From a virus, in the IMG/VR virus record IMGVR_UViG_3300051212_000895, positions 1 through 37,514 of that record: DNA of 37,514 nucleotides; one strand, 5' to 3'. The first letter of the stretch is position 1, and the number at the start of each line of letters is the position of its first letter. This document shows positions 1 through 36,065 of the stretch, in pieces. Below the pieces are notes generated by a model. It did no database searches, was not told the origin of the DNA, and saw only the letters and a program-made list of their open reading frames with translations. A program made the translations under genes and the position numbers.

Positions 1-373
1 TTATTATACATTGATTTCCGTCTCTGTCAAAGAATTCGGCAACTACATGACTAGGACGTCTAAGTTTAAAAAACAAGCCAGGAAAACTTAAACAACCTTC
101 TTCGCCTAATTCTTCTTCTGGATCTGTAACTATAATTTTTGGATTGAACAGAGCGAATGGAGTGTATACTCCTTGAAGATTAGAAGTCTTCATTACAAAA
201 ACTCTGGCTTCTACACCTACTTGATTAGCGGATAATCCAAGTCCAAATTCTTTATCCATTAAAATTATCATTTGCTCTTCTAATTCTTTTGGATCCATTA
301 TTGGATTAGTAAAATCAAATTCTGGTAGTGCTTTGTCTAATATTGGGTTAGGATGAGTGATTAATTTCAGCAT
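1..373 (-). CDS. def: Peptide deformylase, C-terminus cut by window edge
   Basis: Peptide deformylase removes the formyl group from the N-terminal methionine of new proteins and needs a bound metal. Translating from the ATG at 373 gives 124 residues before the window ends. Motif 1 (GLGLSANQVG, residues 44-53) and motif 2 (EGCLS, 92-96, with metal-ligand Cys94) are clear. The HExxH motif 3 would lie beyond position 1 and cannot be checked. The gene overlaps the end of the dnaJ-like gene by 26 bases in another frame, so the two are probably translated from one message; the ribosome-binding site is weak. Phage deformylases are known in marine T4-like phages, where they are thought to help process host or phage proteins during infection. 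The family call is firm; completeness is unknown. Confidence 0.9.
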   Translation of the reverse strand, partial: MLKLITHPNPILDKALPEFDFTNPIMDPKELEEQMIILMDKEFGLGLSANQVGVEARVFVMKTSNLQGVYTPFALFNPKIIVTDPEEELGEEGCLSFPGLFFKLRRPSHVVAEFFDRDGNQCII

Positions 374-1178
374 AAACGGTTTCTAATTTTTTAATAAGTG
401 TCGGGTCAGTCACAGCTGGTATTTTCACACTAATAATAATAACTAATGCGCCGGAACGTTGAGAATTTATGTTTCTAAATCCTCTACCATTACTAGCAAA
501 TTCCGTACCGTGCTGTACGCCTGGTCTAATTGTGATTGGCATCACTGTGTCGTCTAAACAGGTTATCTGTTTTACACAGCCAGTCATGGCTTCTAATGCT
601 GTTATTTCTAAAACTTTACAAAGGTCGTCGCCACGTCGATCCCATTCATTGTGTGTTTCCACCATTACAGTAACATTTAAATCGCCAGCCTGTAATCTAG
701 GATTCGAATCATCTCCTAGTCCACCGTAGCGTATAGTTTGTCCTGATTGTATTCCTGGCGGCACGTCAATTACCACAGTTTTAGATTTGCCCGATGGTGT
801 TGGGTATCTCGCTTCGATTTGTGTACCTATATAACTTTGTTTAAAAGTTATGGTAATTCGTATGCTTAGATCTCGATTTTTCTTTCTAGCATGTTGAGCA
901 AATCCATGGCCAAAATGAAAACTAAACATGTCGTTAAAGTTTGGAAAACCTTGGCCAGGCATGCCGCCAAACGGATTACCAAATCCTTTTAGTTCAGCAT
1001 CGTAGTAAGATCGTTTGTCGGGATCGCTTAGTGTGTCGTAAGCTTGTGATATTTCTTGGAATTTTTGATTGTCGCCGCCACGATCAGGATGATGTGTCAT
1101 GGCCAGTTTTTTGTAGGCCTTTTTGATATCATCCTGATGTGCGTCTTCTTTTACTCCGAGTATGTCATAGTAATTCAT
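348..1178 (-). CDS. DnaJ/CbpA-type J-domain co-chaperone (276 aa)
   Basis: This is a J-domain protein of the class B (CbpA/DjlB-like) layout. Residues 2-70 form the J domain with the Hsp70-activating HPD tripeptide at 30-32. A Gly/Phe/Met-rich linker follows at about 65-95, then two beta-rich client-binding domains to the C-terminus. The four CxxCxGxG repeats of the DnaJ zinc centre are absent. The protein would stimulate the host DnaK ATPase and deliver clients. T4 uses its own co-chaperonin for capsid folding, and this window also has a GroES-like gene, so chaperone capture fits the biology. The gene is followed directly by the deformylase gene. A near-consensus sigma-70 promoter ends about 7 bases before the ATG, leaving almost no leader. 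J-domain identity is certain; the client set is unknown. Confidence 0.93.
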   Translation of the reverse strand: MNYYDILGVKEDAHQDDIKKAYKKLAMTHHPDRGGDNQKFQEISQAYDTLSDPDKRSYYDAELKGFGNPFGGMPGQGFPNFNDMFSFHFGHGFAQHARKKNRDLSIRITITFKQSYIGTQIEARYPTPSGKSKTVVIDVPPGIQSGQTIRYGGLGDDSNPRLQAGDLNVTVMVETHNEWDRRGDDLCKVLEITALEAMTGCVKQITCLDDTVMPITIRPGVQHGTEFASNGRGFRNINSQRSGALVIIISVKIPAVTDPTLIKKLETVYAEINHSS

Positions 1179-5302: not shown

Positions 5303-5736
5303 GTTACAGGATTTCCATTTTCATCTACTTCTATCCAAGTATAATCGCCTAACCATTTTACCCTGCCCATATAATCGTAATGTTCCGGAGCTCCGGTAGT
5401 CCAGTCTTTGGGGCCTTGATGACATAGTCTAGTTCTGTTGATTTTGTGATCAAAAGCTATCCAATATATTTGATTATGATAAACTTGAAATTGATATTCG
5501 GCAGCATGTACAGCATCAGTTATTTCTATTCTACGTTTAATCTGATCTGCTTGTTTTTGCATCACACGAACCACTTCCATAATGCGCTCATATTCTTGTT
5601 GAGCATGTAGCCTAGCTACATTAAGCATTATGTCTTTTTGTTTAGTAACTGGAACTAGGTCAAACTTTGGAGCTCCTATCTCCATAGGATAGGTTAAACT
5701 GTTGCGTCGCTCTGGATCCTTAGGATCTAGTTCCAT
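5299..5736 (-). CDS. DUF2452-like conserved protein (145 aa)
   Basis: A 145-residue protein whose layout fits the family I know as DUF2452: an N-terminal GAPKFDLVP segment, a long helix with KQADQIKRRIEITDAVHAAEY at about 61-81, then a beta-rich end with a W-containing YDYMGRVKWLGDYTWIEVD signature. The family has no known function. Its gene sits directly after the clamp-loader large subunit, sharing one base (TAATG), in the place where T4 carries gene 62 (the small clamp-loader subunit). The sequence does not resemble T4 gp62 as I remember it, so no replication role is assigned. Identification by memory of the family pattern; moderate confidence. Confidence 0.65.
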   Translation of the reverse strand: MELDPKDPERRNSLTYPMEIGAPKFDLVPVTKQKDIMLNVARLHAQQEYERIMEVVRVMQKQADQIKRRIEITDAVHAAEYQFQVYHNQIYWIAFDHKINRTRLCHQGPKDWTTGAPEHYDYMGRVKWLGDYTWIEVDENGNPVT

Positions 5737-6650
5737 TACAGTCTAGCAAGTCCGATTAGAGTAGCTGATAAATTTATTTCAGGATCTATAACCAAAGCAT
5801 GATCTACTAGGCCTTTTTTAATAATTAGAATAGCCTGATCTTGTTGAGCATCGTCACCAAACAAAGCAACATTATCATACAGCCAACGATACACTCCTTC
5901 GACTTCTTCTGGACGAATTTGACTACAGATTAGTTTTCTTGCTTCACTAATCTTTCTTGCTTTAAAAAGACTGACCATGTCAATTTTCCAATCAGGTTGC
6001 CCACTGTCAGCTTTATCTGGACTATGAAGTGTAGCATCTCTACTGTTCATTTGTACAGTATTAATACATTTACGCAAGTCTGGATATGTTGCCTTTACGA
6101 ACGTGTCCAGCGTGTCCAAGTCGAAATCAACTTCTTCGCTAACAAGTATTGTAGCAACACGAGCGGTAAACTCAGTAATATCCGTTCGTTCAATGTGAAA
6201 TCCTTGACATCGTGAATGTAAAGCAGGGATAATGCGATTAGGGTAGTTACAGGTGAGGATAAAACGAGCAGTCTCGTGATATTCTTCCATAACTCCACGG
6301 AGAGCAGCCTGCGCATTAGGACTAAGATAATCAGCTTCATCTAATAATACCACCTTAAAATTTCCAAAAGGAATCATTTGTACAAAGTTTACAATTTTGT
6401 CTCTTACATCTTCTACACTGTTAGTACGACTAGCATTTATTTCAAGTACATCTAAATCGTTAATATCAAGTTCATTAAACAGTATTTTAGCTAGAGTAGT
6501 TTTACCAATGCCAGCATTACCACTGAAAAGCAAATGTGGAATACTACTTTCCTTAACCCAGTTTTGTATTTGCTCTTTTTGTCGCTGATCTCTAAACACA
6601 TAACCATCTAGCGTTTTAGGTCTATACTTTTCAACCCATAGTTCTTTCAT
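5736..6650 (-). CDS. Sliding-clamp loader large subunit (gp44-like)
   Basis: An AAA+ clamp loader subunit of 304 residues, close to the length of T4 gp44 (319). Features in order: the N-terminal WVEKYRPKTLDGYV signature; Walker A GNAGIGKT at 44-51; Walker B LLDEAD at 102-107; a sensor region with CNYPNRIIPAL; the SRC arginine-finger motif at 146-148; and a C-terminal helical collar. It would load the gp45-type clamp for DNA replication and, in T4-like phages, late transcription. It overlaps the 72-aa gene upstream by four bases (ATGA) and the DUF2452 gene downstream by one. The small subunit (gp62) is not adjacent, unlike in T4. Confidence 0.95.
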   Translation of the reverse strand: MKELWVEKYRPKTLDGYVFRDQRQKEQIQNWVKESSIPHLLFSGNAGIGKTTLAKILFNELDINDLDVLEINASRTNSVEDVRDKIVNFVQMIPFGNFKVVLLDEADYLSPNAQAALRGVMEEYHETARFILTCNYPNRIIPALHSRCQGFHIERTDITEFTARVATILVSEEVDFDLDTLDTFVKATYPDLRKCINTVQMNSRDATLHSPDKADSGQPDWKIDMVSLFKARKISEARKLICSQIRPEEVEGVYRWLYDNVALFGDDAQQDQAILIIKKGLVDHALVIDPEINLSATLIGLARL

Positions 6651-7430: not shown

Positions 7431-8694
7431 ATAAACTTTCGTAAACGTATTGTAGTTCTGGATAGACTTCTACAAATTTAGTGTTTCTTTTTCTATCTAA
7501 TGCTGTAATTGCCCGTATAAAACTATTCTTAAATATAGCATAATCATATTCATGATTCAAGAGTTCTAAACAATTTTGAAGATTTAAGTACCAATCTTTA
7601 TACATTTTAGGCCTTACAACTTTCTTACCTGTTTCTATTAGCGACGTTTCTAGTTTTGCCTTAGACTCGATGTTAAATCCAAGATTTTGAAAATTCCATA
7701 TTTCTGGGCTGTGTACATAATTAAAACTAGGATAGGCATGTTTGAGTATACCTGTGTTATCATACCAATCAAATAATTCTTTTAAGGTTAAGGCATTGAA
7801 CAAAGTCACGCTAGTATCTATACTTGTTTCGATACCGGCATCAATAAATCTCCAAAAGTTTTCCAACCACTTTTCTTCATTATAGCCATAACGAAAATAT
7901 TCTCCACGAGCTCCGTAGTGATCATGACTCATAACAATTTGACATTTGCCCTGCCATTTTGTTAGATAGTCATCGACAACATCTACGTTTTTATAAGTTC
8001 TTATACTACCGTTAGTGTGAAACCATAACTTAATGTTTTTATGGTTAGGATGTTTAAGTAGTTCTTCAATTAATGTAAAAGTCTCAGGCTGTAAAAAAGG
8101 TTCACCGCCGTTAAAATGAATTTCCTCTAAGCTATTAGAATTTTGTAAAATAAAATCTAATTTACTTTGATTGTCTGAATTAGCGGGCTCTTTGTATTTT
8201 TCAAAGGTGCTACGATCATCTTTATTCAACCAGATACTAAACACATCTTTGTAATTATTAGATATAGTGCTGCTTAACCAAGGTGTGCAATGTATACATG
8301 AAAAGTTACATTTGTTAGACCATATTAGATCTACAAATTTAAGATTTTGTTTTAATACTGTGCCGTCATCTAAAGTGTTTGCTACAGAGTCATCGATAAC
8401 TTCTTTGCCTTGTTGATTACTAAGATCACGAGCATGGCCTACGACTGTTCCTCCCTTTTCTTTATCCCAACAGGTGGTACATCCTTCAGGTTGGTCGCCG
8501 CGTAGGAATTGTAATCTTAGTTTTTTTGCTATTGCGCTATTATAGATTTGATCTATAGTTTGATTTTTGATATTGCCAATTACATCAGTGCTAGCACAAC
8601 AGAATTTGACATCACCGTTTGAACCTGTCCAAACGGTGTTCCAAGGAGCACAACAAAATGATTTGCCATACTTTGCTTCTACATCTGTGTTCAT
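7414..8694 (-). CDS. Radical SAM protein with twitch-type extra Fe-S domain (426 aa)
   Basis: A radical SAM enzyme of 426 residues. The canonical CxxxCxxC cluster motif is at 129-136 (CNFSCIHC), followed by a HFNGGEPF segment (the GGE motif that binds the SAM amino group). Before it, an N-terminal Cys-rich part (CC at 14-15, CC at 32-33, C72, C75) resembles the SPASM/twitch auxiliary cluster domain, here placed N-terminal. Twitch-type radical SAM proteins occur in marine phages with unknown substrates; a peptide or protein modification is the usual guess for SPASM relatives. The gene is coupled to the GroES-like gene upstream (ATGA) and the MazG gene downstream (17-base overlap). No precursor peptide was noticed nearby. 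Catalytic class is sure, reaction unknown. Confidence 0.9.
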   Translation of the reverse strand: MNTDVEAKYGKSFCCAPWNTVWTGSNGDVKFCCASTDVIGNIKNQTIDQIYNSAIAKKLRLQFLRGDQPEGCTTCWDKEKGGTVVGHARDLSNQQGKEVIDDSVANTLDDGTVLKQNLKFVDLIWSNKCNFSCIHCTPWLSSTISNNYKDVFSIWLNKDDRSTFEKYKEPANSDNQSKLDFILQNSNSLEEIHFNGGEPFLQPETFTLIEELLKHPNHKNIKLWFHTNGSIRTYKNVDVVDDYLTKWQGKCQIVMSHDHYGARGEYFRYGYNEEKWLENFWRFIDAGIETSIDTSVTLFNALTLKELFDWYDNTGILKHAYPSFNYVHSPEIWNFQNLGFNIESKAKLETSLIETGKKVVRPKMYKDWYLNLQNCLELLNHEYDYAIFKNSFIRAITALDRKRNTKFVEVYPELQYVYESLYDQSF

Positions 8695-9029
8695 ACTGTG
8701 GGTACGTAAACACCTTCTGGCCTATAATCTGCCACAATTAAAATATCTTTGTTGTCAACACGACGCACTGTGATTTCTTCGCCGGACTCTTCGACCTTTA
8801 CACCGCGTGTCCATCGTCCATGTGCTACACAAATCCAATCGCCGACTTTAACATCTTTTTGTTCTGGACCTACAGCCCATACACGACCCCATCTTGCTTT
8901 AATGCCTTCACTTTTTCCATCAAGACTTTGTATAATTATTCCTGTAGTGGTTCGTTCTTCACCGAACTCCATGTCTGTGATCAGGACGTTATCTCTAATA
9001 GGATGTAATTGTCCTTTTATAACGTTCAT
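8691..9029 (-). CDS. GroES-like co-chaperonin (gp31-type)
   Basis: A 112-residue co-chaperonin-like protein. It starts with the typical IRDNVLI strand (GroES: LxDRVxV), has a mobile-loop-like Thr/Gly/Ile segment at about 26-34 (TTTGIIIQ), followed by the barrel strands GRVWAVGPEQKDVKVGDWI and the late strand ILIVADYR. The protein would cap the host GroEL chamber, as gp31 does in T4 for folding of the major capsid protein gp23. The extended loop (residues 22-45) is compatible with a wider cap. The gene overlaps the radical SAM gene by four bases. Confidence 0.85.
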   Translation of the reverse strand: MNVIKGQLHPIRDNVLITDMEFGEERTTTGIIIQSLDGKSEGIKARWGRVWAVGPEQKDVKVGDWICVAHGRWTRGVKVEESGEEITVRRVDNKDILIVADYRPEGVYVPTV

Positions 9030-9293: not shown

Positions 9294-9794
9294 TTATCTC
9301 ATAAATTCTTTAAAATCTAAATTATACTGTAAGCTGTCTATTTTGTGTACGCCTAATAGATAAAGTACATAGCTTGAAACACTGCTACCTCGACCTACTC
9401 CCCAGACTATGTTATTACTACGCATGGTATCTACAAGATACTTTAACCATTTGAGTAGATCCAACATGTTTCTTTTTTTGTATTCTTCTAGTTCTAACAG
9501 CACACGCTCTTGTTCGAACAAATTCTTACATTTTTGCCAAAGATATTCTTCTATATCTAATTGTTTGTATTCATCAGGCATGTACCATTTTGATTGATTG
9601 ATACTATCGAATTCTTCTATAGATAATTCTTGATTAATATTAGATATAAAATTTAATTGGCTATGATTGATGAATTCGTCTAAGTCGCCTACTTGAATAG
9701 CACTATCTAACAAAGAAAGATCTGTACCTGTATAAATTAATTCAAACAGGTCAGATTCTTCGAATATAGGATTACTGTATTTGTCAGACTTCAT
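9294..9794 (-). CDS. Truncated DNA polymerase III alpha-like protein (166 aa)
   Basis: The last 36 residues (WGVGRGSSVSSYVLYLLG, 131-148, then KIDSLQYNLDFKEF) match the DnaE signature GPGRGSGAGSLVAYxLxITDxDPLxYxLLFERF, with GRGSS replacing GRGSG. The segment before it (97-130) matches the helix-rich part that precedes this motif in DnaE. The protein stops where DnaE would enter the catalytic Asp-containing palm region, so polymerase activity is not expected. The N-terminal 90 residues have no clear match. The start at 9794 and the neat spacing (25 bases to the next gene, 9 after the 76-aa gene) suggest an intact gene rather than a fragment. A DNA- or nucleotide-binding relic reused by the phage is the best guess. 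Confidence 0.75.
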   Translation of the reverse strand: MKSDKYSNPIFEESDLFELIYTGTDLSLLDSAIQVGDLDEFINHSQLNFISNINQELSIEEFDSINQSKWYMPDEYKQLDIEEYLWQKCKNLFEQERVLLELEEYKKRNMLDLLKWLKYLVDTMRSNNIVWGVGRGSSVSSYVLYLLGVHKIDSLQYNLDFKEFMR

Positions 9795-10034: not shown

Positions 10035-10603
10035 TATGCGTATAATCCTAAATAGTTTAGATACACAATGTTTCTATTACTTAGTTTTGTAGCTTCGATT
10101 ATGAAATCTGCATTAACATTTACACCTGTGACGAATGGACTAGGCAGAGCAGCAGATTTTCTAATTGAACCACCACCGCTTGTAGCAAATACTACATTCT
10201 TAGTTGTTCCATTACTGGTTAATATAAGTCTAATCCTGCGTTCAACTATCTCGTCGCCAGTAGGCCAATTGCCAAATGTAATTGTAATATCGCCACCAAT
10301 TGTGGCTGTAAACACATCGGCATCTCTAGTATCTATATTGGTGGCTGTTGTGAGAGTACCTAAACTTGTTACAAAATGATTTAATCTTCTTTGAATACCA
10401 TTTTCTAATTTTTTAATGCCACCAAAATCATTATCTTCATTAAGTTTAGCAGTATTATTTTGTAAATCTGTAATTTCTGTGTAAGCCTGTGCTAGACCTT
10501 CTTTTACGTAAAGAAAGTTATCTCTGAATCCCTGACTATTATTGTCTTGCCCGGCAACGGGAAAGTTTTCGTCGATTCCTGAATATGCTATAGAGCTGGT
10601 CAT
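10034..10603 (-). CDS. Baseplate/tail-associated structural protein (189 aa)
   Basis: A 189-residue protein with N-terminal GIDENFPVAGQDNNSQGFRDNF, a motif frequent in marine T4-like phage tail proteins, followed by a helical coiled-coil stretch (YVKEGLAQAYTEITDLQNN) and a beta-rich C-terminal half. The N-terminal part is analogous to the DGTGDxxRxAFxKxNxNF module that starts three of the fibre proteins upstream, suggesting a shared docking role. The gene overlaps the 884-aa gene by four bases (ATGA), and a late-type promoter (GATAAATA) lies 34 bases upstream inside that gene. A tail-connector or fibre-base protein is likely; its exact position in the virion is unknown. Confidence 0.75.
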   Translation of the reverse strand: MTSSIAYSGIDENFPVAGQDNNSQGFRDNFLYVKEGLAQAYTEITDLQNNTAKLNEDNDFGGIKKLENGIQRRLNHFVTSLGTLTTATNIDTRDADVFTATIGGDITITFGNWPTGDEIVERRIRLILTSNGTTKNVVFATSGGGSIRKSAALPSPFVTGVNVNADFIIEATKLSNRNIVYLNYLGLYA

Positions 10604-13254
10604 GATATTGTAGTCCTGTCATTTCTAAATACGATATATTTATCATTGCTATAACCCGTCACTTGATCTATGATATATCTATCAATTGTGTAGTCGATTT
10701 GTCTAAAATCAAAGTTACTGTATTTTATATTAAGCAATATGTCATCGGCCCTGCCGTTTTTACAAAAACAAAGTGGAATGGCTTTGACATACCCTAATTC
10801 TTGTACAGAACCTTGCTGTATGCTTCTCATCCAAAGAGGCAAGAAATTTCTATCTTTTATACCTAACGCTTTAATTCTATATCTCCAAAGCGCCAAACTA
10901 CTAGGAAATCTAGCACCAGTAAATGGATCTCCAGCAAACATATCATTTCTGTCAGCAGTAGCATGAAAAGGAATAGGCGCACCCCAATCTGCTACGCTGG
11001 TATTAAATGGACCTGTTCTATATTGATTATTCTGATCTACTGTAACTGGTATCTGACTATAACTAGTAGATATTACATTAGGCAGATAGTTTTTGCCTTT
11101 TTCCAAAGGATCTAGCACTTCTAAATATACAACTTCATAAAGTGAATTAAATGTGGCTGGTTCATAAGCTACTGCCTTTTTTACATTGCCAAATTTAAAT
11201 CTTTTAATTTTGTGATTGCGCCCTGCCATGCCAACTACCGCTGCGGCCGATTTAGTTTCTATACCAGCGTACACTAACATCTTTAATTCTGTTTGTAATC
11301 CAAAAGCAGGATCATCCGGACGATATATTGCTGTGACGTCGAATATTTCTGGGTCGTTTATAAAATCTTTAAACACTTGTCTTTGATTTAATTTTAAGAA
11401 AGGTTTTACAAATATATTACTAAATTTTCTATCATTAGGTGTGTCGATATCTAGAGTAAATGTTCTACTGATAGCACTGTAACCTAAGATATCTCTAGCT
11501 TCAACTGTAAAGGTGTAAGATTTATCTATAGTGGTACTATCGCCGTCTAGACTGGTAAATGTCTTAGTTGCTACCTGCGGCACATCGTCAAAGAATCTTG
11601 TAAGGCCATCTTTTCCAGGTTCCGGAAATTGATTTACTTTGCCTATAAGTTCTCCATTTAGATTTAATGTAATACCTGGCGGTAGTCTGCCCGAAGTAAC
11701 TCTATATAACATCACAGTATCAGGCAGTGTAGATTCTGCCTGTAAGTATAACATACTGATATATTCAGCACTTAATGAACCTAAATTACTAGGAGTTACC
11801 CAACTTATAGTGCTATCAATTTCCCCAATAATATCTACGGTGAATGTTCTTATACTGCTTGCTGCTTCTGCTTTGTCTGTATATCTTGTAGCTTTTACGG
11901 AAAATTTATAGGTAAGAGTAATAGCAGGCTGATAGGGCAGTATGCCAAATACTTCTCCTGTACTTTGATCAAACTGCATACCGGGAGGCAATTTACTTAA
12001 CGATCCAAAATATACTAACGTGTTGTCTGATAAGAATACAGGTAGCCCACCGTCACCTACTGTAAGAACCCATTGATTATTTACTGTGTCTTTTAATACA
12101 CTGGTAATTGTTTTTATTTGTGTACTAGCACCCTTGACGTGATCAGAAAATTTTATTTTTTGTCCTGCTACTGGTGTACCTTGTACGTTTTTAAGTCTCA
12201 ATAAATTTTTATTTTTTCTATTTACATCCGGGTCAATAACTTCTTGACCGTTAACTAGTTTTCTCATAGTTGTTAATCCTGACACATCAGGATTAATTGA
12301 TTCTAAATTATAATCAATAGGACCAACTGCCAATGCTTCGTAGGTATCTAAAACAAATGTTTTATAATTATTGGCTCTTACTACTCCTAGGTAATTTGGA
12401 GTTACCCATACTGGTGCTCTTGCGTAGGTCACGTCAGCAGTAAATGTGCCGTTGCCTGCTCTAGTAGCATTATTATCGCCTCTAAAGAAATCGTCACCAA
12501 CTACATAAATTCTAAATTTTCTCTGAGCATAATTTTCACCATCAGTGACTATAACAATAAATTCAAAATTTCTATTTAATTTTTTAGGAGCGTTTGATGG
12601 TATACTATAATCAAAACTAGTAACGTCGAAAATAAAACTATCGTATCCGTTACTTGGTCTAACACCATAGTCGTAAGCCACTCTATCATATCTTTGCTTA
12701 TCAAAATTGCCGTTACCTTCAGTTAGCGGTGGAGCTAGAGTTGGTTGTACCCATCCTACTATTCTTCCTGCTTCGGTTAATATTAGTCCTGGTGGTAATT
12801 CGCCACCACCAGATGGTATAAAGAATTTTAATTGTTGTCCTGTACTAGTATCAAAATCTACCACTTCAAGTTGAAAATCTATGTAAGAACTGTCTAGTAC
12901 ATAATAAGCATCATTAGGACCCAAAGGTAAAGGTCCTGAGGCTGTCTGCCACACAGGTTCATCAGTGCCGTTTACTATGATTTTGAATGTTCTATCTGAA
13001 ATGTTGCCGTTATAACTAGCACGTATAACAAATTTGAACTCTGTTGGTCTAGGAACTTCAAAAGCAGAACCTACAATTCTGTCATTTACGATTCTTAGTC
13101 CTGGTGGTAATTTTCCTGTGATTACTTCGAAGTTTAAATTAGTGCTATCTTCAAATGAATTTTGATAGGAAACAGGCAGTGCTAGATCCACTGCTGTGCG
13201 TTCTTCTATTGTGCCGAAACTAAAACCGGATTTTTGAGTCCAAATATTAAGCAT
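10600..13254 (-). CDS. Large tail/baseplate protein with cadherin/He_PIG repeats (884 aa)
   Basis: An 884-residue virion protein built from Ig-like repeats of the He_PIG/cadherin type. At least four copies of the strand-turn signature are seen: LPPGLRIVNDRIVG (about 50), LPPGLILTEAGRIVGW (about 155), LPPGMQFDQSTGEVFG (about 423) and LPPGITLNLNGELIG (about 525). The C-terminal third (about 620-884) is not repetitive and may be the anchoring part. Such repeats are common in phage tail proteins and bacterial adhesins and often bind carbohydrate or Ca2+. A perfect T4 late consensus (TATAAATA) lies 19 bases before the ATG. It sits between the protease gene and the 189-aa gene. It is probably a baseplate or fibre component; no T4 gene number is assigned. 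Confidence 0.85.
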   Translation of the reverse strand: MLNIWTQKSGFSFGTIEERTAVDLALPVSYQNSFEDSTNLNFEVITGKLPPGLRIVNDRIVGSAFEVPRPTEFKFVIRASYNGNISDRTFKIIVNGTDEPVWQTASGPLPLGPNDAYYVLDSSYIDFQLEVVDFDTSTGQQLKFFIPSGGGELPPGLILTEAGRIVGWVQPTLAPPLTEGNGNFDKQRYDRVAYDYGVRPSNGYDSFIFDVTSFDYSIPSNAPKKLNRNFEFIVIVTDGENYAQRKFRIYVVGDDFFRGDNNATRAGNGTFTADVTYARAPVWVTPNYLGVVRANNYKTFVLDTYEALAVGPIDYNLESINPDVSGLTTMRKLVNGQEVIDPDVNRKNKNLLRLKNVQGTPVAGQKIKFSDHVKGASTQIKTITSVLKDTVNNQWVLTVGDGGLPVFLSDNTLVYFGSLSKLPPGMQFDQSTGEVFGILPYQPAITLTYKFSVKATRYTDKAEAASSIRTFTVDIIGEIDSTISWVTPSNLGSLSAEYISMLYLQAESTLPDTVMLYRVTSGRLPPGITLNLNGELIGKVNQFPEPGKDGLTRFFDDVPQVATKTFTSLDGDSTTIDKSYTFTVEARDILGYSAISRTFTLDIDTPNDRKFSNIFVKPFLKLNQRQVFKDFINDPEIFDVTAIYRPDDPAFGLQTELKMLVYAGIETKSAAAVVGMAGRNHKIKRFKFGNVKKAVAYEPATFNSLYEVVYLEVLDPLEKGKNYLPNVISTSYSQIPVTVDQNNQYRTGPFNTSVADWGAPIPFHATADRNDMFAGDPFTGARFPSSLALWRYRIKALGIKDRNFLPLWMRSIQQGSVQELGYVKAIPLCFCKNGRADDILLNIKYSNFDFRQIDYTIDRYIIDQVTGYSNDKYIVFRNDRTTIS
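10637..10644 (-). promoter_or_regulatory. T4-like late promoter (GATAAATA)
   Basis: GATAAATA on the minus strand, 33 bases before the ATG at 10603, inside the end of the 884-aa gene. It would give the downstream small structural genes extra late transcription. Confidence 0.42.
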
Positions 13255-13300: not shown

Positions 13301-14893
13301 TTACGGCATTCTGAATGTTACAGGCCCTTTAATCTGTATGCCCGATGCTCTATGAGTAATACCTAAAGTAGCATAAGGCCAAAACAAGTAGTTTTGATTT
13401 CCTCCCCATATGCTGGCTTGATTGGTATAATCGTTATCTAAACCAGTACTATAGATTCTGTCTTGGCCAGATATAGTTGTGCTGCTCAGCCAGGATTTAA
13501 CCTGAGCTGGAGTAGCTGATGGATTTTGCTGTAGGTATAAAGAAATTACTCCAGCTACTTGCGGACTGGCCATACTGGTACCGCTGATGTTTACCTGTTT
13601 AAAAGCAGCATTTTCATTATAAGCTACACCGGTATATTGATTAGTTTGACTAGTGCTACTTACAATATAACTGCCCGGAGCACTGATAGTGACGCCTGGA
13701 CCGTGATTACTAAATGTCGATTTAGTTTCTTGCGCATAAGCTGTGGTTTCTGCTATGCTGCCTACAACCACAGCATTATCACTATAAGGACTACAACCTC
13801 TATGATAATAGATATTACCAGATACAGAACTTGTCCAGTAGTTATTATAATCTAATCCGCCAGTCGCATCGATTTTTTCAAAATTATTTCCAGCCGCAAT
13901 CACAACGATTACACCTGCTGCTAGCAGTTCGGCAATATCTGTATCTACACTGCCTACACGTATATTACCTCTTCTGGTTATACCTGATAATCTGCCTATC
14001 ATTCCATAAGCATTTTGGATGGTACTTGCTGTCCAAGGTGTGCCTCTATAATTACCGCCAGTAATATTTGTATAAGCTACACTGTAACCCCAACTCATAT
14101 TTACAATAGTTGGTCGCTTTACACCTAATACTGGATCAATAGGTTTAGCATTGTGCCACTGTTTGATAACATCAAAACAATCTGAAATCGCTATACCTGA
14201 TCCTAGACCTGTGCCTGGATCAATGTCGCCTGGTCCTTCTAGACCTCTTACTTTTAAGCTGTAAATTCGTGAATTTTTGCCCCAGCCAAAAGTTTTGCCG
14301 GCTGCTATACCTGCTACATGTGTTCCATGTCCGTCAAAATCTCTATAATGATTAGCACTTTGTGTGCCAGGCAATCCACTTTCTGTATACCAATTTATTT
14401 GTTGAACGCGATTGCTACCCAGAGGATCATCAAATTCTGGATGTGTAACTTCTATACCACTATCTTGAATTACTATATCTACTCCACTACCGTCGTAAAA
14501 ATAAGAATAATCACCAGGAGCAGATAACCCACCGCCATAAGGATCTGTATAACTTATGCATCTTCTTAAGCCCCAGTTTTTAAAATCGCCGGCGCTAGTA
14601 TATGTTTTGTTAAAATTACCTGTTTGTACAGTTAGCAATCCAATTTCAATATCTGTTCTTTGATCTGGAGGAATCTCTACACTATATACACGACTGTCAT
14701 TTTGTAGTATTGCTGCTTCTTGATCGGTAAGAGCATAATGACAGCTTCTAGTACTACCTGGTCTGTTGTTAACAATGTCTACAGCATGGTCAGGAATATA
14801 GGGGTGCTGATTGGTGGTAGACTCCATTTCATTCCAAAATTGGTCGTAGTCTACATCCGCTTTTAGAGATACAATATATTCTCTTCTTTCCAT
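13301..14893 (-). CDS. Subtilisin-like serine protease (peptidase S8) in the tail-fibre region
   Basis: A 530-residue subtilase with the full catalytic set: Asp144 (IQDSGI), His189 (GHGTHVAG), oxyanion Asn336 (AAGNN) and Ser440 (SGTSMASPQ). The first 90 residues start with YIVSLKADVDYDQFW, resembling an I9-type inhibitor propeptide, so the enzyme may be made as an autoprocessed zymogen. No signal peptide is visible, which argues for a virion-bound or cytoplasmic protein. About 60 residues after the protease core are of unknown fold. I chose ATG 14893 over a longer start at 14932 because the longer one overlaps the upstream gene and lacks the ribosome-binding site (AGGA) present here. Position between fibre and baseplate genes suggests a virion protease that cleaves host surface or phage proteins. 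Confidence 0.93.
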   Translation of the reverse strand: MERREYIVSLKADVDYDQFWNEMESTTNQHPYIPDHAVDIVNNRPGSTRSCHYALTDQEAAILQNDSRVYSVEIPPDQRTDIEIGLLTVQTGNFNKTYTSAGDFKNWGLRRCISYTDPYGGGLSAPGDYSYFYDGSGVDIVIQDSGIEVTHPEFDDPLGSNRVQQINWYTESGLPGTQSANHYRDFDGHGTHVAGIAAGKTFGWGKNSRIYSLKVRGLEGPGDIDPGTGLGSGIAISDCFDVIKQWHNAKPIDPVLGVKRPTIVNMSWGYSVAYTNITGGNYRGTPWTASTIQNAYGMIGRLSGITRRGNIRVGSVDTDIAELLAAGVIVVIAAGNNFEKIDATGGLDYNNYWTSSVSGNIYYHRGCSPYSDNAVVVGSIAETTAYAQETKSTFSNHGPGVTISAPGSYIVSSTSQTNQYTGVAYNENAAFKQVNISGTSMASPQVAGVISLYLQQNPSATPAQVKSWLSSTTISGQDRIYSTGLDNDYTNQASIWGGNQNYLFWPYATLGITHRASGIQIKGPVTFRMP

Positions 14894-14904
14894 AATAATC
14901 CTAA

Positions 14905-17235
14905 TTAAGGTTCTTGAGCGATAGCTCTCCACCCGCCGCCTAGATATACTACCATTTGTTCTTTACCAGCAGCACTTAATGGATCCCATCCTACACCATC
15001 TGCTACTGCTACCATACCTGACGCAGGACTAACCGGAGCTGCTGATAGTACAGGTAATTTAAATGTACCAGATATATTAAACCCAAACTCTTTGTTAGTT
15101 ACTTTTATCTTGAAATCAGCTGTGGTAGAAATTTCCGCTGATCCTAAACCAGTACTTACAAACTCGTCAGCATAAACTTTATTATCTACTACTAAATCAT
15201 TTTGTACTGTAACATCAGAGTTAAAAATTACTGCTGGTGTAAAATTAATAGCAGAGCTGTCATTGGTATCGATCGTGCTTACATTTAGTGTAGGAACATC
15301 TAGTATACCAGTTACATTTACATTTTCTAATAGATTAATTTCGCCGGTGCCATTTGTTCTTATATCTAAATTGGCATTAGAATTAATTGTTGAAATTAGA
15401 TTACCTTCAATTCTAATTGTAGAACTAACTTCAACTCTAGCAGGAATGCTTACAGTTTGATATTGAGAGATTATAATCGCATCGGTAAGATTGTATCCTG
15501 CTCCTGGCTGTGCTGTAGAAAGTTTAAGAATACCAGCAGTGCCTGGACTACCATTTATACCAGGAGGAGTTTCAGCTGCTGTAGCAAAGATTACAGCTGA
15601 CGGAGGTATAGGATATCCATTTACGTTTAAACCATTTACACCATCCACAGCAGTAAAGCTAATTAAACCAAGCATGTCATTGACTTGCACACTGGTTGTA
15701 CTATTAAATGTTCCTCTTCCCCTTACAAAATTAAGAGAAGTTGTAATAGGATCATTATGTACTTGAACTAGTTCGGCTATGCTTAATTGCCCATTAGTCA
15801 AAGGTACAGCATTATCTAATAAACGAAATTTGGCACCAATTTCAAGAGGACCAAATGTATTGTTAAGATCTAAAGTACCGCCTAAGTTAACAAATGGATC
15901 TTCTCCGTTAGGAAAGAAGTTAATAGATCTGTTAGTAGTTTCTCGAATTATACCGCCTGAAGTATAAGCAGTAGCATTACTACTTTGTATGATAACTGTA
16001 GTGGTTGTGGATGCTGCTCCTTCACCAGCTGGTCTAGTTTCATATACGGCGTTCCAACTGCTGCCCAATCCTGTAACACCTGAAATTTTTAAGAATCTAT
16101 TGTTGTAATAAGGTGGGTGAGGATGTGCCGGACTAAAAGTTACAGTAGCTCTGCCTGCTATAGGAGTATTAGGTTGAATATTTGTTATAGTAAATGGATC
16201 AGTAATCAGCACACTTGCTATGGTAGTAGCAGCAACTACGTTGGTTTCTAGTGCAGCATACTCTGGCATGAATCTTAAATCAGGACCAGATGTTGCCAGT
16301 GCGCTGGAATTTACAGCACTGTAGTATGGAATAGCAAATACCGCTGTACTATTAGGAGTAACTGGACTAGTGATGGTAATCCTAGCAGGAGCTCCGGTAT
16401 CGTTGACTGCTATGCTAATGCCGTTATCTCCTAGAAGCTGCAATGTTTCGTCGTTGTTTATTCTAGTTTGTGTTGAATCAGAACCTGTAACAAACCAGCC
16501 TACATCTTGTAAGTTAGCATTTCCGCCACCACCGCCAGCAATGCCAGTACCATCAATGTTTACTATGGTAGTGCCGCCCGTGTCGTTTACATTAACACTG
16601 ATGCCGCCTAACCCTAAAAACTGAATAGTTTCAGAATTGTTTATAGTTTTTAGTGTTGAATCTGATCCTGTTAGGTTAAAAGAAAAGCTGCCACTAGCCG
16701 ATGGCGGTGTGGCTGGAAAACTTACTGTAGCAGTAATTTTACCTGATGCGTCGTCGTAGGAAAATGAAATGCCATTATGTGGATTAGCAATATTACTAGT
16801 AAATCTTATGGTGCCGTTGGTAAAAGCATCTGCGCTGCTCACACTGATTGTATTTGTAGCTGATACTATAGCAGTAATTGTACAAGTATTATCAAATCCA
16901 AAACTGCCAGGTCCACTGACCTTGGTTAATGTTTGACCAACTTGTAATCCTGTTAAAGAATCTAAATTAGTGATAGAAGCAGTATATGGCCCAGAACCTG
17001 CTGCGCTGGCAATTATACCAGTAAATGCGCCTGGTTTAGCAGATAGCAAGCTAGCTGTAATGTCCTGAAGGTATTCATCATTTAGATAACTTTCAGCATC
17101 AACAGCTATACCACCCTGGGTAACACCATCTCCTACCCATAGTTTTTTTGTATCGGTGGTCCAAATAGGTTCACCAATTGCTGGTGTGTACGCTGCTCTT
17201 TCCGCATTCGTTCCACGTCTTATTTTAAAAGCCAT
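14905..17235 (-). CDS. Tail fibre with Mtd-like N-terminus (776 aa)
   Basis: A 776-residue fibre-like protein. Residues 1-45 (KIRRGTNAERAAYTPAIGE, then TDTKKLWVGDG) match the N-terminal module found in phage tropism determinants and many fibres. An AAGSGPYTA block at about 70-125 is also present in the 2763-aa fibre. Two similar LTGSDSTLKTINNSETI / VTGSDSTQTRINNDETL repeats lie at about 190-285, and an AGRATVTF block at about 365 is again shared with the 2763-aa protein. The C-terminal end reads MVVYLGGGWRAIAQEP, a typical fibre terminus. A strong ribosome-binding site (AGGAG) precedes the ATG. It likely contributes to receptor binding; which end touches the host is unknown. Confidence 0.88.
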   Translation of the reverse strand: MAFKIRRGTNAERAAYTPAIGEPIWTTDTKKLWVGDGVTQGGIAVDAESYLNDEYLQDITASLLSAKPGAFTGIIASAAGSGPYTASITNLDSLTGLQVGQTLTKVSGPGSFGFDNTCTITAIVSATNTISVSSADAFTNGTIRFTSNIANPHNGISFSYDDASGKITATVSFPATPPSASGSFSFNLTGSDSTLKTINNSETIQFLGLGGISVNVNDTGGTTIVNIDGTGIAGGGGGNANLQDVGWFVTGSDSTQTRINNDETLQLLGDNGISIAVNDTGAPARITITSPVTPNSTAVFAIPYYSAVNSSALATSGPDLRFMPEYAALETNVVAATTIASVLITDPFTITNIQPNTPIAGRATVTFSPAHPHPPYYNNRFLKISGVTGLGSSWNAVYETRPAGEGAASTTTTVIIQSSNATAYTSGGIIRETTNRSINFFPNGEDPFVNLGGTLDLNNTFGPLEIGAKFRLLDNAVPLTNGQLSIAELVQVHNDPITTSLNFVRGRGTFNSTTSVQVNDMLGLISFTAVDGVNGLNVNGYPIPPSAVIFATAAETPPGINGSPGTAGILKLSTAQPGAGYNLTDAIIISQYQTVSIPARVEVSSTIRIEGNLISTINSNANLDIRTNGTGEINLLENVNVTGILDVPTLNVSTIDTNDSSAINFTPAVIFNSDVTVQNDLVVDNKVYADEFVSTGLGSAEISTTADFKIKVTNKEFGFNISGTFKLPVLSAAPVSPASGMVAVADGVGWDPLSAAGKEQMVVYLGGGWRAIAQEP

Positions 17236-17252: not shown

Positions 17253-17921
17253 TTACAGTCCACCTAAATCTATTGTCACCGGACTAGGCAACGATGTTGT
17301 GCCCATGTCTACGTCTATTGTCATTAAAAAATATTGGATTGGAGTAGCAGCAATACCACCTGGTTCGCTAAGTTCGCCTGCTCCAAGAGTTCCAAAATCC
17401 CAATCTACATCTGTGCCAGCTGAGGACCATAATAAATTACCGTTACCAGATGTTGTTAGTACTTGTCCTGTTGATCCGCCAAATATTTTGACTCTGCCTA
17501 CAGGACCTAAATTGCTTTCGCCATTGACAGTTAAATTATTACCTACTAGTATATTTCCGCCTGACACGGTAATATTACCAGTGATGGATATATTGCCACT
17601 ACCTTCTATTACTTTAGAATTTAAATTTAAATTCTGCGTTAATGTAGTAAACTGACTGCTGATTATTATTTCGTTAGCATTGGCAGTTAATGTTACATTA
17701 GATCCTGCTACTAAGCTTTTAAAAGCTAAGTTGTCGCCTAAGATCGCACTGCCTTGTTTACCAGCAAATAGACCTTGCCCTGCTCCTAAATTAATAGCAT
17801 TACTTATACTTAGGTTATCAATTTCTGTAAAATTACTGTTTACTTTTTCAAATGCCACACGAAGATCGTCGCCGGTACCGTCGTTAGCATAAGTTCCTAA
17901 ATTTACAATTTGAATAGCCAT
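17253..17921 (-). CDS. Short fibre-like protein with shared docking module (222 aa)
   Basis: A 222-residue protein that starts with VNLGTYANDGTGDDLRVAFE (residues 5-24) and a NSNF sequence, the same docking module found at the start of the 937-aa and 2763-aa fibres. After it come Ala/Gly/Asn-rich beta repeats (SNVTLTANANEIIIS; GNISITGNITVSGGNI) and a short end (SPVTIDLGGL). It is probably a short fibre or a base segment that carries a longer fibre. A GATAAATA late-type promoter lies 18 bases before the ATG, overlapping the end of the desaturase gene, so this gene can start a transcript of its own with the 776-aa fibre. Confidence 0.82.
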   Translation of the reverse strand: MAIQIVNLGTYANDGTGDDLRVAFEKVNSNFTEIDNLSISNAINLGAGQGLFAGKQGSAILGDNLAFKSLVAGSNVTLTANANEIIISSQFTTLTQNLNLNSKVIEGSGNISITGNITVSGGNILVGNNLTVNGESNLGPVGRVKIFGGSTGQVLTTSGNGNLLWSSAGTDVDWDFGTLGAGELSEPGGIAATPIQYFLMTIDVDMGTTSLPSPVTIDLGGL

Positions 17922-17939: not shown

Positions 17940-17947
17940 TATTTATC
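17940..17947 (-). promoter_or_regulatory. T4-like late promoter (GATAAATA)
   Basis: GATAAATA on the minus strand, 18 bases before the ATG at 17921, overlapping the stop codon of the desaturase gene. The spacing matches that of the exact-consensus promoter at 13274-13281. Confidence 0.55.
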
Positions 17948-18683
17948 TGGTTTTGATTTTTGCTAATCGCAGGCCTTGTAAAATACGTATATAAAACCAT
18001 CCTATATCAAATTCCCACCATTTTTGACTTAATTTTGCTGAAACGCCGTCTGCGTGGTGATTATTATGTAGTTCCTCGCCACCAATGATTATTCCCCACG
18101 GAACTAAATTACGACTAGTATCTGCTGTATTTGTATTTCTATACCCTATATAGTGCGCTAAACCATTAATTACACCAGCTGCCCAAAATGGAATCCATAA
18201 CATTTGTACACCCCAAACTACCGATCCCCAAGGGCCAAAAAGAACAAGATCTATGATCAACATTAAAAGAATCCCTAACCAAGGATGCGGGGTGTATATT
18301 GTACGTTCAATCCAGTCACTGGGTGTACCAATGCCTAGTCGCTGTATCATATCTTTATCTTGGGCAGCACGAGCATATAAAAATGCTCCTCCAAACAGTA
18401 CTCGCCATACGCCTTCTAGTTTAGGGCTATGAGGATCACCTTCGACATCGCAGCTTTGATGATGTTTACGATGTATTGCTACCCATTGTTTGGTAACCAT
18501 TCCAGTAGTTAGCCACAACCAGAAACGCATGGGATGACTGACGAAAGGATGAAATGTTACTGATCGATGTGCTTGACTACGATGTAGATAAAGTGTAACA
18601 CACATAATTGTTATGTGTGTCATTAAAAGTGTTATTAAAATAAGTTCCAAAATTAATCCCAAGATCCGCCACTTTGTTGCCAT
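17943..18683 (-). CDS. Membrane fatty-acid (acyl-lipid/acyl-CoA type) desaturase
   Basis: A 246-residue integral membrane desaturase. The three His boxes are present: HRSQAHRS (HxxxxH, about 34-39), HRKHHQ (HxxHH, about 72-76) and HNNHHA (HxxHH, about 210-214). Hydrophobic segments lie at about 8-30, 50-66, 133-150 and 155-175. This fits the delta-9-type family that uses a di-iron centre and O2 to put double bonds into acyl chains. Desaturases are known in some marine cyanophages and may keep membranes fluid during infection. The start is unsure: ATG 18683 overlaps the fibre gene by 31 bases and lacks a ribosome-binding site, while a TTG at 18650 has GGGA before it and starts just after the fibre stop; both keep all His boxes. 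It is embedded among fibre genes. Confidence 0.92.
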   Translation of the reverse strand: MATKWRILGLILELILITLLMTHITIMCVTLYLHRSQAHRSVTFHPFVSHPMRFWLWLTTGMVTKQWVAIHRKHHQSCDVEGDPHSPKLEGVWRVLFGGAFLYARAAQDKDMIQRLGIGTPSDWIERTIYTPHPWLGILLMLIIDLVLFGPWGSVVWGVQMLWIPFWAAGVINGLAHYIGYRNTNTADTSRNLVPWGIIIGGEELHNNHHADGVSAKLSQKWWEFDIGWFYIRILQGLRLAKIKTR

Positions 18684-21889: not shown

Positions 21890-24703
21890 TTAATCGTAAA
21901 ATTCTGAACCGTAGAACACTTTGGCGGTCCAATGTACTTTCAGTGTTTTGCTTTCACCATCTATTCTACGATAACTTATAGTACCTTCATTTTGTACTAG
22001 CCATAGTTCATCGTTTTCGCCGTCAGTGGTGCCGCTCTGTACTTCCTGGTGACTGATGTGTTCTTCACCGCTGTCATCTACGATGTGTATGGTGCCAATA
22101 ATAGTAGATTCGCCTGTATAGGCGTGATAGTCTATTACAGCACCGCGGAAGTTATTGCCACTGCCAGGTAAGTCTGCCTTGTCCCACCATACTACAGGTT
22201 CTGCACCTGTATTGTATCTAAAGTAGATTGTGTCGCCTTGATTATATGTTAGCGCAGTTGATACGCCATAACCTCTTTCGTCGCCACTAAAACTTGTACT
22301 ACCGTTCCAGGTGTACCAAGTTGTATTGTCTAACGAGAATTGAAAATTGTAGGCATTGTTGTAGTTGGCTGGATTGTCTAATACCTCGTCTATTGTTGTA
22401 GAAGTGATGTCAACCCATATTGTACTGGTGCCTGATCCTAATCTCGATGCTACAGTAGTTAAACTATTAGTTGTACGAGAAGTAACTGAGACCTGATTGT
22501 AGCCTGTGACTTCTTCTATTCTACGATCGCCAACAGCAGTTGATTTTACACGACCTGTGCCTAAAGCAGATTTTAGTATGGTGCCATCTTGGAATTTAAT
22601 ACCTTCATTAAGCTTAGTTAAATCTATCTCTTTTCGTGTGTAACTAAACCCACCACCTTGATTGCCCTGTGTCCAACTTAAGAATTTAATAGCATAATAC
22701 TTTTCTATGCTAGGCACATACATTACACATTCTGTGCCTACTATCTTATTTCCTAATCCACCATTACCAAACGCCGCATATAGATTAGTATATGTTCTTG
22801 TTTCAACATCGGACAGATCATTCCATCCATCAATATTCCATTCTGTACCTTGAGGACTGACATTTTCATTCCATCCTTCTTCAGTGAATGGATTATAGAT
22901 GCCATTGTTCTCTCCTCGAGTTATACCAATCTGTATTGTAGAATCGTCTTCAATAACGTCTACGTTGTTAGCAGTGGCGTAGTCTTCTTTTCTAAAATAA
23001 TTAGGATCAGTTACTTCTGTTCTGGTATAAGAGTAACCACCGTTGTTGCCACCCCAAGCAGTAAAATCAAACTTGTAATACTTGTCGTTGACGATATCGT
23101 GCATGACAAGTTCACTGGCTACTATGTTATTTCCTACCTGATTGTTTAAGGCCTGACGCCAGGTTACATATGATCTAGTGCCAATACCTGTTAAATCTCC
23201 CCATCCGTCACTGTTCCATTCTGTGCCTAAAGGACTGAGATAAGTGCTATTATCGTATTCTGGTTCTACTGCACTGTTATAGATTCCTTGAACGTTATCT
23301 CGTGTCAGCGTTAATCCTGGCCTGATTTCATCAAATATTTGTTCTGGTTGATAATCAATACTAACACTTCCGTAGGATCCTGTATTATTTTCTGGAACGC
23401 CTACAAATTCAGCATTAGCGACAGTTAATATTCCACCGTTGCCATCTACAGTGCCTATGGTAAATGTTATGCTACTAGAATCAGTTGGGCCACCGATCTG
23501 ATAATTGTAGATTTTATAAGTCGTACCTGGTATATAACCAGAGCCAGCTTGGGATACTGTAATTCCGCCTAACACTGGTCCTTCTAAAATATCCACTTGA
23601 ACTTGAGCATTAATGCCTGACAAAGGTACTGTGACAGTAACTGGTGTGCCTAATACTGCAGGCCGTGTGATAAAAGGTGTGTCAGTTAGTTCTAGGTATG
23701 GCTGTACTGGTCCTGCGGCACCACCTAATACTGAATCACCGTTTGAATCTAGGATATCTCCTTCGGCGGGCAATGTTAGATTTCCATCACTGTCAAAAAC
23801 CCATTCTTTGTCAATTCCGCCCGCAGCGGTATTAACTGCGACTATACCCTGTGTGGCTGTGACTCGACCATAGTCGTTGCCTGCTAACTGCTCTTGAACA
23901 CCTTCTAATACAGCACCGTTGTTGGCTCTAATTTGAAAGTATGAACTATTACTAGGACCCGATGGTTCAACATACTGTTTGACAAAAGCACCACTGTCGC
24001 TAACTTCCAAAGAAGATCCTGCTACGTCAGTGGCAGTAATCACACCGTCATTGGAAATCTCTGTAATTTTTTTAGTAATTACTATATTTGTTGGATCTAT
24101 TTCTATCTGCGATTCCGTGATTGTAGTCTGAGACGCTTCACCCTCTGTTATAGTATCTTCACTTCTTTTAGTAAGCACTGTGGTATCGACATCTTGGATT
24201 ATTTCAACCCCTTCTATCCCACCACCACCTAATAATCCTTCAGTATCAGTTAAGTCTGAAACGTCTGTTGGAACATTAGGAATGTCAGTATAAGTTAAAG
24301 TCTGACTAACTGGAACATTATTAATTTTTAATTCGTTGGTATTAGGATCTAAACTTAAAGGGGTACCACCTAAATATACAGTTGAATTACTTACATACAA
24401 ACTTTTGAATGGTTTAGCAGGTGTACCTAATGTATGTTGGTTAGCCACATTAGGCACTATGTCACCGCCTACTTCTAGTTCACTGGTCATTACCACAGCT
24501 TGATCTATGATAATATTTGTACTATCTGTAGTAGTAATTGTATTATCAGTAAATTCAAAAGAACCAATATTAAGTCCTCCTGAGTCTAGTCCTAACGCTG
24601 TGTACAGTTCAGTAAAGTTTTCATTTACTTTATTAAATGCTGTGCGTAACGGATCGCCATTACCTTTATCAGCTGTACCTAAGTTAATTGTTTGTTTAGC
24701 CAT
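21890..24703 (-). CDS. Tail fibre with docking module (937 aa)
   Basis: A 937-residue fibre-like protein. It starts with the docking module (INLGTADKGNGDPLRTAFNK, 5-24, then NENFTELYTALG), which is shared with the 222-aa and 2763-aa fibres. After a beta-rich region comes a WVFDSDGNLTLPAEGDILD module (about 302-320), also found in the 1073-aa fibre. Two copies of a LTRDNVQGIYN/ITRGENNGIYN-type repeat with a W-rich core (STYLSPLGTEWNSDGWGDLT; NVSPQGTEWNIDGWNDLS) lie at about 465-680. The C-terminus is a beta-rich domain ending AKVFYGSEFYD. The ATG shares a base with the stop codon of the 2763-aa gene (TAATG), so the two are translationally coupled. Probable receptor-binding fibre. Confidence 0.85.
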   Translation of the reverse strand: MAKQTINLGTADKGNGDPLRTAFNKVNENFTELYTALGLDSGGLNIGSFEFTDNTITTTDSTNIIIDQAVVMTSELEVGGDIVPNVANQHTLGTPAKPFKSLYVSNSTVYLGGTPLSLDPNTNELKINNVPVSQTLTYTDIPNVPTDVSDLTDTEGLLGGGGIEGVEIIQDVDTTVLTKRSEDTITEGEASQTTITESQIEIDPTNIVITKKITEISNDGVITATDVAGSSLEVSDSGAFVKQYVEPSGPSNSSYFQIRANNGAVLEGVQEQLAGNDYGRVTATQGIVAVNTAAGGIDKEWVFDSDGNLTLPAEGDILDSNGDSVLGGAAGPVQPYLELTDTPFITRPAVLGTPVTVTVPLSGINAQVQVDILEGPVLGGITVSQAGSGYIPGTTYKIYNYQIGGPTDSSSITFTIGTVDGNGGILTVANAEFVGVPENNTGSYGSVSIDYQPEQIFDEIRPGLTLTRDNVQGIYNSAVEPEYDNSTYLSPLGTEWNSDGWGDLTGIGTRSYVTWRQALNNQVGNNIVASELVMHDIVNDKYYKFDFTAWGGNNGGYSYTRTEVTDPNYFRKEDYATANNVDVIEDDSTIQIGITRGENNGIYNPFTEEGWNENVSPQGTEWNIDGWNDLSDVETRTYTNLYAAFGNGGLGNKIVGTECVMYVPSIEKYYAIKFLSWTQGNQGGGFSYTRKEIDLTKLNEGIKFQDGTILKSALGTGRVKSTAVGDRRIEEVTGYNQVSVTSRTTNSLTTVASRLGSGTSTIWVDITSTTIDEVLDNPANYNNAYNFQFSLDNTTWYTWNGSTSFSGDERGYGVSTALTYNQGDTIYFRYNTGAEPVVWWDKADLPGSGNNFRGAVIDYHAYTGESTIIGTIHIVDDSGEEHISHQEVQSGTTDGENDELWLVQNEGTISYRRIDGESKTLKVHWTAKVFYGSEFYD
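23721..23808. repeat. Block shared with 1073-aa fibre gene, copy B
   Basis: This is the partner of the block at 20915-21001. It encodes the GNLTLPAEGDILDSNGDSVLG-type module of the 937-aa fibre. The similarity at base level exceeds what one protein motif would need, so recent copying or recombination is likely. Confidence 0.7.
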
Positions 24704-35366: not shown

Positions 35367-36065
35367 TTACTGCCAGTTGTCAACAATAATCGGATCTTGT
35401 ACTTCGTCAGGTTTTGGATCACCATGAAAAACTAAAATTTTGGTTCTAGGATCTACTTTAGGATTAGCTACTTCTTTGAATTGACGCTTTAGACCAACTT
35501 TGATAACATCATTTCTGTTACGTATTTCCCACTTATAACTTTGTATCCATTCGTCTGGCCAAAACTGATAGTTGCTTCTAATCTGACTATAAATCCAATC
35601 TTGATCACCATGCATCTTTCTAGTAACAGTAATGTCGCTGACAAGATTATCCCAAACAAATTGAAAATTACCTTTTTCAAATTTAAAGATGCTGCTGTTA
35701 AATTTCTTCCATTCTTTGATACTACTGCGATTAAAATCTCTAATTATACAAAATCTTCCTGGATTATATGTCCATAAACTATCTATGTTGCTTACAATCA
35801 CAATATCAAGATCTAAAAAGATAATTGTACCTTCTAAAGGTAATTCAGCACTAAACACCCAAGGCTTGTACCACCAGCCTTGTAGTCCTGCCTGTTTTGG
35901 TATAGGAATAATTTTAATATCAGGATTTATATGACTAGCATCTTCTGTGATACAAGCAAAACCAAAAGGCACAGTACAGTGCCTTCTAACCATATTATAC
36001 AATTTGTTTACATAACTGCTACTATATTTGTTGCCGTGTTTCAGACATACAAACCATTTATCCAT
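35367..36065 (-). CDS. GT-A-type glycosyltransferase (232 aa)
   Basis: A 232-residue glycosyltransferase-like protein. An N-terminal Rossmann-type start (KWFVCLKHGNKYSSSYVN) is followed by a GLQGWWYKPWVF segment and the metal-binding DxD motif at 85-87 (FLDLDIVIVSNIDSLW). A DQDWIYSQIRS stretch at about 154 holds a likely second acidic site. The C-terminal HGDPKPDEV pattern is known from related GT-A enzymes. Donor and acceptor cannot be told. It overlaps the KdsA gene by eight bases and lies in a surface-sugar cluster, so modification of host LPS or of a phage fibre is plausible. Confidence 0.82.
   Translation of the reverse strand: MDKWFVCLKHGNKYSSSYVNKLYNMVRRHCTVPFGFACITEDASHINPDIKIIPIPKQAGLQGWWYKPWVFSAELPLEGTIIFLDLDIVIVSNIDSLWTYNPGRFCIIRDFNRSSIKEWKKFNSSIFKFEKGNFQFVWDNLVSDITVTRKMHGDQDWIYSQIRSNYQFWPDEWIQSYKWEIRNRNDVIKVGLKRQFKEVANPKVDPRTKILVFHGDPKPDEVQDPIIVDNWQ

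Follow-up and report, generated by a model that had tools for sequence, protein, structure and literature searches.

Our data reveal that a gene for a peptidase of the subtilisin family (S8) lies almost always beside a fibre gene with a conserved C-terminal domain: this fibre-protease pairing is near-constant across hundreds of related aquatic virus fragments, and weaker in the subtype present in our window (the whole stretch of 37,514 nucleotides analysed, IMG/VR virus record IMGVR_UViG_3300051212_000895). We suggest that the protein is a tail-mounted subtilase zymogen, carried on the fibre, which would digest a protein of the host surface at adsorption, and we give this reading a probability of about one half. 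The enzyme itself adds a member to a known family and is already named in some cyanophage annotations. In the literature that we searched, mostly without subscription papers, we found no description of a pairing between S8 and fibre genes or of a virion subtilase, nor of the S8/Ig-like fusion and the module swapping discussed below, and we know of no tail-borne protease with a dedicated fibre partner.

The protease and its propeptide

The gene (13301..14893, minus strand), which runs from an ATG at 14893 to a stop at 13301, encodes an intact S8 subtilase of 530 residues. An AGGA Shine-Dalgarno-like stretch is found just 5' of the ATG, which is separated by 11 nt from the stop of the fibre gene before it; a longer variant with a GTG start at 14932 is less likely, as it would overlap this upstream gene. 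On the plus strand, 13301-14893 is interrupted by numerous stops, which rules out coding there. Pfam Peptidase_S8 (PF00082) matches residues 135-479 (E = 3.8e-34) and is the sole Pfam match of the protein. The initial annotation had described a complete subtilisin-like protease with four intact catalytic residues, and both statements hold, the latter to the exact position: Asp144 (14462..14464, in DSGI at 144), His189 (14327..14329, in HGTH at 189), the oxyanion Asn336 (13886..13888, in AAGNN from 333) and Ser440 (13574..13576, in GTSMA from 438), all on the minus strand, with the triad in the order Asp-His-Ser and in DSG/HGTH/GTSMAxP motifs. None of the four varies among 46 distinct homologues, which reach down to roughly 25% identity, and all are intact in 115 of 115 distinct complete proteins, on which ground we reject decay of the gene into a pseudogene. 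Compared with the closest relative (87% identity) the dN/dS ratio is about 0.04, an approximate value because dS is near saturation, and the gene is under strong purifying selection. Peptidase activity of the window protein is predicted from these features.

The AlphaFold2 model, built on an alignment of 32 sequences from the window and viral contigs, reaches a pLDDT of 84 and has a subtilisin fold. Its catalytic domain (approximately residues 88-510; 13364..14632, minus strand) is proteinase K/aqualysin-like: residues 88-507 resemble aqualysin I, proteinase K relatives and a keratinase at Z ~36 (structural matches 4dzt, 8c4z and 5wsl; model range 84/88-507/517). The protein shares the catalytic fold (Z 36), the order of residues and the propeptide fold with proteinase K, aqualysin I and subtilisin, but differs from them in the lack of a signal peptide, the location in a phage tail operon and the larger loops, with a catalytic domain of about 420 residues as opposed to 280.

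Residues 1-80 (14654..14893, minus strand) form a propeptide-like N-terminal domain with a subtilisin-propeptide fold, that is, a ferredoxin-like propeptide of about 70-80 residues, in which the b-a-b-b-a-b topology spans residues 4-73 of the model. Modelled alone, residues 1-85 adopt this topology as well (pLDDT 82), and their best structural matches are the subtilisin propeptides 3whi, 1scj, 1spb and 2z58 (Z 7.1-7.5). The Foldseek E-values of this region are weak singly (0.02-0.2), and the top twelve matches are all subtilase propeptides or proenzymes. The probable I9-type propeptide of the initial annotation is therefore borne out by the fold, while the Pfam I9 sequence model has no match to the N-terminus. 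Between the two domains, residues 81-86 appear in the model as a disordered linker of low confidence, which fits an autocatalytic removal of the propeptide. The earlier view that a signal peptide is lacking also stands: a Kyte-Doolittle scan of the N-terminal part detected no hydrophobic stretch, the highest 19-residue mean being -0.47. The combination of a propeptide fold and the lack of a signal peptide fits a zymogen that would fold in the cytoplasm and process itself.

Relatives of the protease are present in 43 of 50,697 phage records, nearly all of them T4-like cyanophages (25-36% identity), and in 56 viral contigs, where identity reaches 87%. The PHROG matches of the window protein are 9158 (E 1.6e-77) and 3677; given these and the single Pfam match, it does not belong to the sequence families of the known phage prohead proteases (S14/S49/S77/S78, T4 gp21). 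The PHROG 9158 genes of cyanophages (the 'subtilisin-like serine protease' of S-H38, S-CREM1, S-WAM2, P-SSM2 and others) are of the same family as the window protease and usually lie beside fibre-like genes, as it does, although the window protease comes from a different, more distant phage group; they are labelled protease or hypothetical, with no role given. In the annotated cyanophages examined, the S8 gene is in most cases preceded by a fibre or 'tail pin' gene, and that of S-TIM54 is located among virion structural genes. The comparison of gene position in related phages, which had been proposed as a check, shows that S8 mostly adjoins fibre-type genes.

A fibre end domain linked to the protease

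In the window, the partner fibre gene (776 aa; 14905..17235, minus strand) lies directly upstream of S8. It starts with an Mtd_N adaptor and ends with a domain (14908..15147, minus strand) that alignments and linkage assign to the window subtype of the protease-linked domain. Further fibre-like genes of the operon upstream include a short fibre/connector protein with a T4 gp9/10-like N-terminus (17253..17921, minus strand; PHROG 677), a fibre protein with a T4 gp9/10-type connector N-terminus (21890..24703, minus strand; PHROG 677) and a protein of 2,763 aa. The genes downstream encode an Ig-like (He_PIG) tail protein of 884 aa (10600..13254, minus strand) and a protein of 189 aa. Searches with Pfam, PHROG and homologues recognised no baseplate family downstream of S8; of the placement between fibre and baseplate genes claimed earlier, the fibre side is correct and the baseplate side is not, the next gene being the He_PIG tail protein. 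Rfam and tRNA scans of the window returned nothing.

Several other genes of the window bear on the phage and its host. A fatty-acid desaturase-like gene (PF00487, E 7e-14; 17943-18683, minus strand) is situated between two fibre genes, and a gene for KdsA (3-deoxy-8-phosphooctulonate synthase, KDO/LPS precursor; 36058-36876, minus strand) hints that the host is Gram-negative and that LPS is remodelled in infection. The phage encodes its own Cpn10 (GroES-like; 8691-9029, minus strand) and DnaJ (348-1178, minus strand). For a protein of 166 aa (9294-9794, minus strand), the match to the DNA polymerase III alpha NTPase domain (PF07733) is partial; many related contigs have conserved its gene close to the fibre block. 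The clamp-loader protein (5736-6650, minus strand) is most like those of the Pseudomonas jumbo phages PA5oct and Paride (57%), a likeness which suggests that the window is probably part of a large phage of the PA5oct/Atu_ph07 type.

The fibres upstream of S8 differ in their N-terminal parts, and many of them end in a common domain of about 65-75 residues (consensus SPxRLASFTTTxRNALTAxNGDMIYNTTTNKFQGYANGAWVDLH), which no family model matched; the window subtype follows the pattern P.SP..GM..VADG..WDP....YYDG. Among the 56 contigs found by the protease alone, the adjacent upstream gene has the domain in 37, or in 39 when two contigs with a broken protease frame are included. Searches from the side of the domain covered the best 80 of 321 and the best 80 of 360 relatives, a selection that favours sequences near the query, and a more divergent domain query was chosen to reduce this bias. 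In one best-80 list S8 lies directly downstream in all 79 new loci, some of which are on the same contigs as loci of the protease search. In the divergent slice it is adjacent in 60 of 72 loci, one or more genes further on in 8 and absent in 4 (7 more loci are at contig ends). A chance association of fibre and protease is rejected by these two counts (79/79 and 60/72). For the window subtype the link is looser: S8 is adjacent in 16 of 33 loci, one gene further in 10 and absent in 7 (one additional locus is at a contig end). In the pool of 142 loci the upstream gene carries the domain in 127, a proportion that is not free of bias, since some of these loci were retrieved with the domain itself. 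Clustered at 70% identity, the S8 proteins that have an upstream neighbour form 41 groups; the domain occurs on seven N-terminal fibre families that are mutually without detectable similarity, one of which holds most members.

We reject the notion that the fibre domain always implies the protease: the Vibrio and Methylophilales phages in which remote versions of the domain occur are absent from the S8 list, and the link to S8 therefore belongs to a subfamily of this fibre end. There are also S8 loci in which the upstream gene is without the domain and encodes either a Gly-rich protein of adhesin type or a protein of 122 aa. In four loci (L012, L014, L017 and L021) the gene before S8 encodes such a Gly-rich adhesin-like protein (PF21722) with an overlap of 8 nt; it is a putative alternative partner of the protease in this clade.

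Fusions, inserts and virion proteins of homologues

Only three phage records (Phosso and two of Atu_ph07) contain homologues of the 884-aa Ig-like neighbour, and all of these homologues are S8 peptidases. These fused proteins of 1,251-1,287 aa consist of an S8 domain, He_PIG repeats and a C-terminal region as in the neighbour, and pairwise comparison of the latter with the C-terminal halves of the Atu_ph07 and Phosso proteins gives E-values of 3e-20 and 3e-21. The S8, Ig-like and C-terminal tail domains of Atu_ph07 gp329 and the Phosso protein are ordered as in the window, but they form one protein where the window has two genes, and the S8 domains are only 26% identical. A separate Ig-like gene follows S8 in 19 of 19 viral-contig loci, again in the order of the fusion. 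Fusion and constant order together argue that the S8 and Ig-like proteins belong to one structure.

Mass spectrometry of Atu_ph07 found 131 proteins, most of which are encoded in three clusters, among them CDS 284-329 (PMC6102473). By these limits the cluster ends with gp329, the fused protease; the numbering of the record matches that of the paper (gp327 is the tail fibre). For S-SCSM1, 45 virion proteins were found by mass spectrometry (PMC9602691). In the record, 'virion protein' is the label of 48 proteins and is missing from several genes expected to be structural; the label tracks detection closely, not exactly. It is borne by ORF228, which combines S8 with two lectin domains. Such joining of S8 to fibre or tail modules is seen in homologues, in contrast to the window protein, where the connection is one of gene adjacency only. 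The initial annotation had proposed a virion-associated protease, and homologues support this indirectly, through the gp329 cluster, the ORF228 label, the modules and the linkage to the fibre domain. On these grounds we consider a virion or tail location of the protease highly probable.

Among the 115 S8 proteins, the distances from the N-terminus to the catalytic Asp and from His to Asn are nearly constant, and large inserts occur between Asp and His in 42 and between Asn and Ser in 12; long C-terminal extensions are present in 12. Fixed insert sites combined with an otherwise constant catalytic spacing are what a surface-exposed, diversifying part would show. Some inserts resemble cupredoxin-like regions of upstream fibres, and some match the P-SSM2 tail-spike gene adjoining its protease. 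In one locus (L050) the protease and its own upstream fibre end in homologous Ig/cupredoxin-like modules (38% over 206 alignment columns). The window protease itself has no such inserts.

Two further architectures were observed. One module, some 300 residues long and marked by a conserved EHxFHTxH stretch, has no Pfam match and is inserted in the S8 catalytic domain of three loci (L093:4239-6737, L142:4234-7197 and L226:4230-7229); its position is between Asp and His in some loci and between Asn and Ser in others. S-TIM54 (L003, 10024-16461) encodes a virion structural protein of 2145 aa in which a carboxylesterase-like domain separates the propeptide from the subtilase core and Ig domains follow; by its domain composition it is a predicted two-enzyme tail protein.

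Possible roles of the protease

In the reading that we prefer, the protease would be co-translated with the fibre whose gene immediately precedes its own, and the propeptide would aid its folding and keep it inactive in the host cytoplasm. Self-cleavage in the linker, around residues 80-88, would then follow, and the mature enzyme would be carried on the fibre apparatus, where, as the linkage suggests, the partner fibre probably holds it by its conserved C-terminal domain. During adsorption it would digest a protein of the host surface (outer-membrane protein, pili, S-layer or matrix). Digestion of the host surface is modestly favoured by the lectin, esterase and Ig modules, the variable inserts and the probable retention in the virion. 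Of the two roles offered by the initial annotation, the opening of a host layer is hence the one modestly favoured, and fibre trimming is a real alternative; both may hold.

As a maturation enzyme, the protease would cut the partner fibre or the Ig-like tail protein in assembly, with the fibre domain as recognition site or as the part removed. This would yield much of the same pattern, including the missing signal peptide, the link between the conserved fibre domain and the protease and the tight coupling of the genes, whose gaps are mostly between -19 and +12 nt; moreover, some loci have 189-601 further residues after the domain, which could be cleaved off. We nevertheless think it less likely: most of the fibres terminate with the domain, which stays conserved up to the final residues, with no conserved cleavage-like motif seen there, a trimming enzyme would not need lectin, esterase and cupredoxin modules or large variable inserts, and a homologue is labelled as a virion protein.

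A soluble, late intracellular protease acting in host takeover or lysis, and merely located in the late operon, would likewise have no signal peptide, and lone S8 genes do occur elsewhere in phages (e.g. Bacillus phages). We hold this to be quite improbable in view of the near-constant position next to the fibre domain, the fusions with tail modules and the virion label of a homologue. That the virion retains the protein as a binding scaffold, with proteolysis no longer important, would accord with the large inserts and fusions, but is scarcely credible with all four catalytic residues intact in each of the 115 distinct proteins.

Polysaccharide-cutting tail enzymes of phages are well known, and the gene of the T-even gp38-type tip adhesin lies directly downstream of the fibre gene. 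Tail-borne digestion of host-surface protein would resemble both in placing an enzyme or adhesin at the fibre, a comparison of working only: the window enzyme is a protease and has no sequence relation to either group, and it is without the Gly-rich adhesin sequence of gp38, so that only the gene order is alike.

More tentatively, and with somewhat less confidence than in the preferred reading itself, fibre end and subtilase might form a two-gene cassette widespread in aquatic phages, in which the C-terminal domain of the fibre would serve as a socket for the protease and which would be swapped as a unit and diversified by insertion of fibre modules. If true, this cassette would be the protein-degrading counterpart of the polysaccharide-depolymerase tailspikes. 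The pairing singles out the fibre domain as a candidate for docking or cleavage and helps to annotate hundreds of 'hypothetical' tail genes, and it would show how aquatic phages pass protein on the surface of their hosts.
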